Of a stretch of DNA of 44,761 nucleotides, positions 28,367-28,723 are shown one piece after another. Origin of the DNA: Elusimicrobiota bacterium (GTDB lineage Bacteria > Elusimicrobiota > Elusimicrobia > Elusimicrobiales > UBA9959); NCBI GenBank assembly GCA_009773155.1, contig WOVA01000018.1, positions 1-44,761 of the forward strand, given 5' to 3'. Position numbers and translations under genes: made by a program. The notes below the pieces were generated by a model, which saw only the letters and a program-made list of their open reading frames with translations, was not told the DNA's origin and ran no database searches. How positions within the stretch are numbered: the stretch's first letter is position 1; each line of letters opens with the position of its first letter.

Positions 28367-28384
28367 TGCGCAGTACAGGATTTG
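28367..28384 (-). repeat. 18-bp copy of the tRNA-Val 3' end (att-like direct repeat)
   Basis: TGCGCAGTACAGGATTTG is identical to 28652-28669, which is the discriminator base plus the 3' acceptor and T-stem part of tRNA-Val. Both copies are in the same orientation, 285 bp apart. The copy lies downstream of the tRNA 3' end, as expected for the distal junction of an element integrated into a tRNA gene. Confidence 0.85.
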
Positions 28385-28651
28385 GTCACGGGTCCCCTCG
28401 TCGCCGTCGCTCCTCGGGGCCCGCGCCTCCGATAAGCCGCATAGCGGCTTTCTCCGGCCACGCCTCACCGGTTCCGCTACCGCATGGAACCGGTTCCGGC
28501 CTTGCGGACCGCACGCGGCCTCCACCGGAGGCCGCTCCAAGGGGCGGTCCTCACCCCGCCTCGCCGCTGCCGCCTGCTGGCTCGCGGCTCCGGCTTTCAA
28601 ATCCTGGCGCAAGCCAAATCGTTGGCTTGCTTACTGCTCTGCTAAAACTGG
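28385..28651. mobile_element. Hairpin-rich block between the tRNA-Val copies (possible non-autonomous insertion)
   Basis: No credible gene is present. The block contains four separate perfect hairpins. They are AAGCCGC/GCGGCTT (28434-28450), ACCGGTTCC/GGAACCGGT (28467-28494), GCGGCCTCC/GGAGGCCGC (28515-28535) and GCAAGCCAA/TTGGCTTGC (28609-28630). A CAAATCCTG at 28598-28606 is an inverted copy of CAGGATTTG in the flanking repeat. Framed by the 18-bp direct repeats, it looks like a tiny tRNA-targeting element or a structured RNA locus. Neither can be proved here. Confidence 0.5.
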
Positions 28652-28723
28652 TGCGCAGTACAGGATTTGAACCTGTGACATCCTCTGTGTAAGAGAGGCG
28701 CTCTACCGCTGAGCTAACTGCGC
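28649..28723 (-). tRNA. tRNA-Val (anticodon TAC), CCA encoded
   Basis: The cloverleaf is complete. The acceptor is GCGCAGT/ACTGCGC, the D arm is intact, the anticodon stem is CCTCT/AGAGG with loop CTTACAC, and the T arm is ACAGG-TTCAAAT-CCTGT. The discriminator is A and the CCA is encoded (28649-28651). Its 3' 18 bp are duplicated at 28367-28384. Confidence 0.97.

Follow-up and report, generated by a model that had tools for sequence, protein, structure and literature searches.

Why should the 3' end of an intact tRNA-Val gene be repeated on the far side of a hairpin-rich block of DNA? In the 44,761-nt stretch of DNA analysed here (the window), the sequence TGCGCAGTACAGGATTTG is exact at both edges of such a block, 285 bp apart (Table 1). 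By inference, a stretch of 300 bp would contain an exact 18-bp match by chance with a probability of about 300/4^18, which places the repeat far beyond coincidence. The first-pass annotation of this locus had described the direct repeat, perfect hairpins and the absence of a gene between the copies, and all three were confirmed: hairpins are present at 28467-28494, 28515-28535 and 28609-28630, and the open reading frames that cross the block are mechanical ones without any Pfam match. The inverted copy reported near the tRNA is also real (TTCAAATCCTG, against 28661-28671), although its length of 11 bp had been slightly understated. The annotation overlooked that the acceptor strand has a complement in the block (tactgc) and that the block itself is composite, and it did not foresee the target-matched inverted arms, the extension to Patescibacteria, the non-tRNA targets or the nested second repeat. 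We interpret the block as a single inserted copy of a non-autonomous mobile element that has no gene and whose targets are the 3' ends of tRNA genes and of a few conserved genes, and assign this reading a probability of about 0.72. Only the insertion product is demonstrated; the enzyme, the chemistry and the order of the steps are unproven.

Table 1. Parts of the tRNA-Val locus, in window positions, from the tRNA to the distal repeat
Feature	Position	Strand	Basis or remark
Host tRNA-Val (anticodon tac)	28649..28723	-	ARAGORN and Rfam; intact, CCA encoded
3' part of tRNA-Val(tac), the tRNA-proximal copy of the target repeat	28649-28669	-	
Proximal repeat copy, by which the tRNA is restored	28652..28669	-	Exact 18-bp repeat
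acc', 6 nt complementary to the acceptor 3' strand of the tRNA (tRNA sense: GCAGTA)	28632..28637	-	Sequence; present in homologues too
Third hairpin (F), GCAAGCCAA-CGAT-TTGGCTTGC in tRNA sense	28609..28630	-	Perfect 9-bp inverted repeat; homologous hairpins elsewhere
T', inverted copy of 11 nt of the T-arm (tRNA sense: CAGGATTTGAA)	28596..28606	-	Repeat search; own-tRNA specificity tested
Core hairpin hp1 (module E)	28558..28594	-	Fits the consensus of alignment A1 / model R1
5' base of hp2, GGGGT	28553-28557	-	
Second dispersed hairpin repeat (BCD), 127 bp, in the base of hp2	28426..28552	-	Between GGGGT and CGCGG, without duplication
Remainder of core hairpin hp2 (module A), conserved GAGCGACGGCGA loop, ends GTGAC	28385..28425	-	
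Distal repeat copy (tRNA 3' end), interpreted as the displaced original	28367..28384	-	Exact repeat

The block is not confined to this locus. The host genome (2.76 Mb in 93 contigs) has pieces of it in about 15 further positions, with copies directly behind tRNA-Met, tRNA-Arg(tcg) and tRNA-Ala(cgc). Each of these three contains an inverted copy of the T-arm of its own tRNA, and those at tRNA-Met and tRNA-Arg(tcg) are flanked by a duplication of that tRNA's own 3' end. Matches to the block were obtained in 72 of the 121 relatives searched, many of them behind tRNA genes, and the recurrence beside other tRNA 3' ends for which the first-pass annotation had proposed to look was therefore found both within the genome and outside it. 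A decayed tandem tRNA-Val gene was rejected as the source of the repeat, as the copy is restricted to the 3' end and this layout is seen at many tRNAs. When 84,980 species were scanned with an exact pattern, 52 stretches were obtained; those with a name come from Elusimicrobia or Patescibacteria groups, except for three (L059, L083 and L098) which look like chance matches in coding DNA. The model detected 1-12 copies in each of 28 pattern-carrying genomes, mostly of Patescibacteria with 0.5-1.6 Mb, and gave matches in 31 of 61 relatives. The distribution is patchy, with model matches in 9 of the 287 genomes sampled across the phylum of G126. No match was found when viral contigs were scanned with the exact pattern, or when phages and plasmids were searched by blastn with one Patescibacteria core.

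Read in the direction of the tRNA, the element begins after the tRNA 3' end with a spacer of ~10-60 nt, containing a terminator in some copies, which leads to acc'. This is followed by hairpin F (its loop is often AACTGCTT), by T', the 11-nt complement of the T-arm, and by hp1; then come GGGG, hp2 with its GAGCGACGGCGA loop, GTGAC and a second tRNA 3' end that starts from C56. Some Patescibacteria copies deviate from this order, in that the arm spans the acceptor end only or F is fused with the terminator. The whole unit measures about 160-285 bp, and its mobile part is a gene-free core of two hairpins and ~85 nt. The length of the target duplication varies (18 bp for the window copy, ~21 bp at tRNA-Val-gac and an 82-bp overlap at tRNA-Met), and the distal copy has decayed at many sites. 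Tandem units occur at L043 and L091.

The association with the target is specific. A tRNA gene was present on the same strand at most 320 nt upstream for 71 of 91 pattern-found cores, while tRNAs in any other arrangement numbered 7; since the cores were gathered by patterns and BLAST starting from a window sited at a tRNA, the share of tRNAs is inflated. An inverted match of 11 nt or more to the own tRNA was detected in 68% of cases, compared with 3.9% for tRNAs of other amino acids, and a direct copy in 70% compared with 1.8%. The layout was found behind at least 14 tRNA species and, in addition, at the 3' ends of rpsI (S9), efp (EF-P) and topA (topoisomerase I), where the gene stays complete; these cases come from Elusimicrobiota and Patescibacteria, phyla that are only distantly related. 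At L091, which belongs to a MAG, we observed tandem 135-bp units, in each of which the rpsI 3' end is repeated and is accompanied by a terminator-like hairpin and a core.

The duplicated tRNA ends could also have been left by a larger tRNA-integrating element with an integrase gene, of which the blocks would be deletion remnants. Integrases that target tRNA genes leave a duplication of the tRNA 3' end, so that on general knowledge the repeat is what such elements would produce. However, the copies share one short anatomy at unrelated targets, and a larger version was never encountered. A single integrase would not be expected to produce arms inverted from the target or to use a different target for each copy, and neither viral contigs (exact pattern) nor phages and plasmids (one Patescibacteria core) gave a match. 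We attach scarcely any credence to this explanation.

The core folds as a single strand. In an alignment of 56 core sequences, 88.5% of the cells were paired (65.9% after shuffling), 363 double changes were counted (119.9 after shuffling) and the covariation score was 0.541, as opposed to 0.165 in shuffled and 0.09-0.14 in slid controls. The structure had partly been read from the same sequences, which favours the comparison with the slid control; the shuffles are less affected. The covariance analysis suggested for the hairpins by the first-pass annotation bore out a real single-stranded structure. In hp2, 90 GT/TG pairs were counted against 6 AC/CA mismatches, and this excess of G-T over A-C indicates that constraint acts on the tRNA-sense strand, in the form of RNA or of single-stranded DNA. 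The fixed GAGCGACGGCGA loop, a fixed G.U pair and a bulged A recur in both phyla.

These data raise the possibility that the core is a functional host RNA, a cis-acting structure in the tRNA 3' trailer whose arms pair with the 3' half of the tRNA or with the distal copy and act as a switch, terminator or processing signal. The strong covariation and the G.U bias of the tRNA-sense strand would be in accordance with this, and the complement still fits the tRNA where the distal copy has decayed, for example in the tRNA-Arg-ccg copies and in L032, where the arm follows the TACTGCGC of the tRNA and the distal copy reads TACCG. Moreover, both pairings are predicted, that of the arm with the proximal copy in L173 and that with the distal copy in the window. 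However, a terminator often stands between the tRNA and the arms, so that the arms would mostly not be co-transcribed with the tRNA, and the element is also found behind unrelated protein genes. In addition, orthologous tRNAs of the same genus lack the block, and its occurrence in the phylum of G126 is patchy. A host RNA function for the core is therefore unlikely, and we retain the insertion of a mobile element as the preferred reading.

Direct support for insertion comes from filled and empty sites. In G000, a genome of the same genus, the tRNA-Val-gac gene with its CCA is followed by a terminator, and in G002 the element and, after it, a second tRNA 3' end separate the corresponding tRNA and CCA from that terminator; the upstream flanks are orthologous (645 of 733 aligned bases identical). 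From the position of the original terminator, on the outer side of the far copy, it follows that this distal copy represents the original end and that the copy attached to the tRNA is the new one. By analogy with this pair, the proximal repeat copy of the window would be the newly made one, and the polarity given in Table 1, with the distal copy as the displaced original, is inferred in the same way. The tRNA-Val-cac gene is likewise empty in G000 and filled in G001 of the same genus, with 713 of 791 positions of the upstream flank identical. The empty sites in relatives that the first-pass annotation had suggested seeking thus exist at orthologous tRNA loci within the genus, and the outcome that would have refuted the element, a block present everywhere at this position with neutral divergence and occurring nowhere else, was not observed. 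At tRNA-Met, the site is filled in G000 and in G003 (cut by a contig end in the latter), and no core is present in G001 and G002. The coreless sites retain the acceptor complement and half of hairpin F, so that deletion between the repeats, and not absence of insertion, is possible there.

Comparison of cores at different tRNAs suggests what is inherited. Cores at tRNA-Met, tRNA-Arg and the window tRNA-Val of the host genome, and at tRNA-Met and tRNA-Gln of G035, are 95-98% identical, and hp1 of the window is identical to hp1 at tRNA-Met and tRNA-Arg. The third hairpins next to these near-identical cores are only 55-68% identical, and the arms fit the tRNA at which each copy resides. From this combination we infer that the core seems to be the inherited unit and that the left side is rewritten, either with every insertion or by replacement shortly afterwards. 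Selection or quasi-palindrome correction after insertion could also keep the arms and stems matched. Blocks of hp1 and hp2 swap between copies, and part of the core similarity could be due to gene conversion. The mean core identity within genomes (0.80) was not above that between genomes at the same tRNA (0.81), and 5 of 43 cores had their nearest neighbour within their own genome. Clustering by genome is therefore only partial, and the claim of dispersal rests on the near-identical pairs and not on averages; no transposition event was observed.

It could also be argued that no dedicated element exists and that mobility is mimicked by template switching of the host polymerase at hairpins, combined with tandem duplication at tRNA 3' ends. 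Inverted arms, tandem units and repeats of variable length are products of such errors, and the hairpin stems differ blockwise between copies, but copying errors would have to account for a conserved core of ~85 nt in two phyla and at many loci per genome. We regard this explanation as very unlikely in comparison with the insertion of a mobile element.

The block in the window contains a second insertion. When 28426-28552 is excised, the consensus core is restored exactly, without a gap or an extra base. The excised BCD repeat represents a second dispersed family, copies of which are found elsewhere and are matched by model R1, and it is built of a hairpin followed by two core-like hairpins. 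A member of this related three-hairpin family would have entered the core of the window at a later stage. In the tRNA-Val-tac copy of G002, BCD occupies the same place, and that copy lacks the distal repeat as well as the last part of hp2.

Several other repeats were recorded in the same material. An 85-bp copy of BCD lies in frame within the endoribonuclease gene ybeY at ~2030-2130 of L009 (G000:C73:125500-129700), and the Pfam match runs across it. Single B hairpins (GATAAGC..GCTTTC) are located just 5' of start codons near position 2040 of L015, L017 and L020, with GAGG or GGAGG adjoining the hairpin in a Shine-Dalgarno-like position. Another repeat (L012:1849-1997, G000:C27), up to 99% identical, is present at several dozen places in three same-genus genomes and is unrelated to the core as far as tested, and a short motif (L011:3444-3517, G000:C42) occurs at about 25 places in same-genus genomes.

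The first-pass annotation had offered three readings: a non-autonomous element mobilised in trans, a remnant left by deletion and a structured RNA. Its own checks favour the first. The element itself is supported and mobilisation in trans remains plausible, but no mobiliser was found. Y1_Tnp and RVT_1 were considered and rejected, as they track neither the presence nor the copy number of the element, although incomplete drafts limit this conclusion. RVT_1 was detected in 19 of 35 carrier genomes and was absent from the incomplete drafts G131, G135, G138, G121, G125, G002, G022 and G032. Y1_Tnp was missing from the drafts G131, G121, G127, G141, G032 and G035, which carry 6-12 copies, and both domains were absent from G131, a draft of unknown completeness with 12 copies. 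No core was located beside these genes at the 14 Y1 and 4 RVT_1 loci examined.

The anatomy nevertheless permits a hypothetical course of insertion. An enzyme supplied in trans would recognise the core in a folded single-stranded state, either RNA or ssDNA, and would open the target at a T^C step, which in tRNAs is the T-loop position T55^C56. Extension of the free 3' end might then recopy the gene end, after which snap-back synthesis could copy the inverted arms before a switch to the core, and the GTGAC end of the core would be joined to C56 of the displaced original strand. As the gene is left whole, this would explain how insertions in essential tRNAs survive. We propose only tentatively, at somewhat less than an even chance, that the family constitutes a new class of element in Elusimicrobiota and Patescibacteria, in which the 85-nt two-hairpin core alone is inherited, the left side, with its new gene end, third hairpin and target-complementary arms, is snap-back copied from each target so that every jump rebuilds the target-specific ends, and an unidentified enzyme does the work. 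If true, this would be an unrecognised minimal bacterial mobile element with no gene, a structured core and ends written from the target. It would explain why tRNA-end fragments are repeated, and why hairpin blocks occur, in genomes of Patescibacteria and Elusimicrobiota. It would also be a sign of recombination or copying in genomes that are tiny and streamlined, and would point to an unidentified enzyme able to add sequence to the ends of conserved genes while leaving these intact. Its mobility could be tested by comparing tRNA loci between strains.

The family is apparently undescribed. Only tRNA and rRNA scored above the Rfam gathering threshold, without any curated family for the element, and no like element was described in the open-access literature, subscription journals and preprints being outside the scope of the search. 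Tyrosine-recombinase islands and satellites, the integrative elements that target tRNA genes, also insert at the tRNA 3' end, restore the gene by a copy and displace the original end. In contrast to them, the present element is gene-free, with no integrase in the block (no gene, and open reading frames without a Pfam match), has a core of 85 nt, uses many targets per genome, contains inverted copies of the target and has a repeat of variable length with one fixed boundary. Nor does it have a fixed attachment site in common with its target, as cores 95-98% identical reside at tRNAs with different repeats. MITEs, too, are non-autonomous elements of small size whose inverted ends are flanked by a direct repeat. 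Their criteria of constant terminal inverted repeats and fixed duplication length are not fulfilled, since the inverted ends of the present element are derived from the target tRNA and differ per site and its direct repeat of 18-82 bp has one variable end.

The REP/RAYT system and the GTAG and CGTC repeats share with the element a short, gene-free, hairpin-forming and dispersed form and probable mobilisation in trans. The repeats with GTAG or CGTC tags are single palindromes of 20-40 bp with an unpaired tag at one end, and no transposase is known for the CGTC repeats (PMC3733652). All of these, however, lack target-derived arms and duplication of the gene end, and in the draft genomes examined Y1 genes do not track the present element. 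Rickettsia palindromic elements resemble the in-frame copy in ybeY in form only, as palindromic repeats inside coding genes, whereas BCD has three hairpins and a core architecture in common with the tRNA element. Target-primed retroelements (SINE/R2-like elements and group II introns) come close in their structured single strand, variable target duplication and one fixed boundary, and SINEs also encode no protein. Unlike in these systems, no Rfam intron match exceeded the cut-off here (the best match to the group II intron covariance model had 16.9 bits and E 0.12, against a cut-off of 49), and no reverse transcriptase was detected in several high-copy genomes, which are incomplete drafts. Among the known classes, tRNA-targeting integrative elements, REP/RAYT, MITEs and group II introns each fail a defining feature that was tested.
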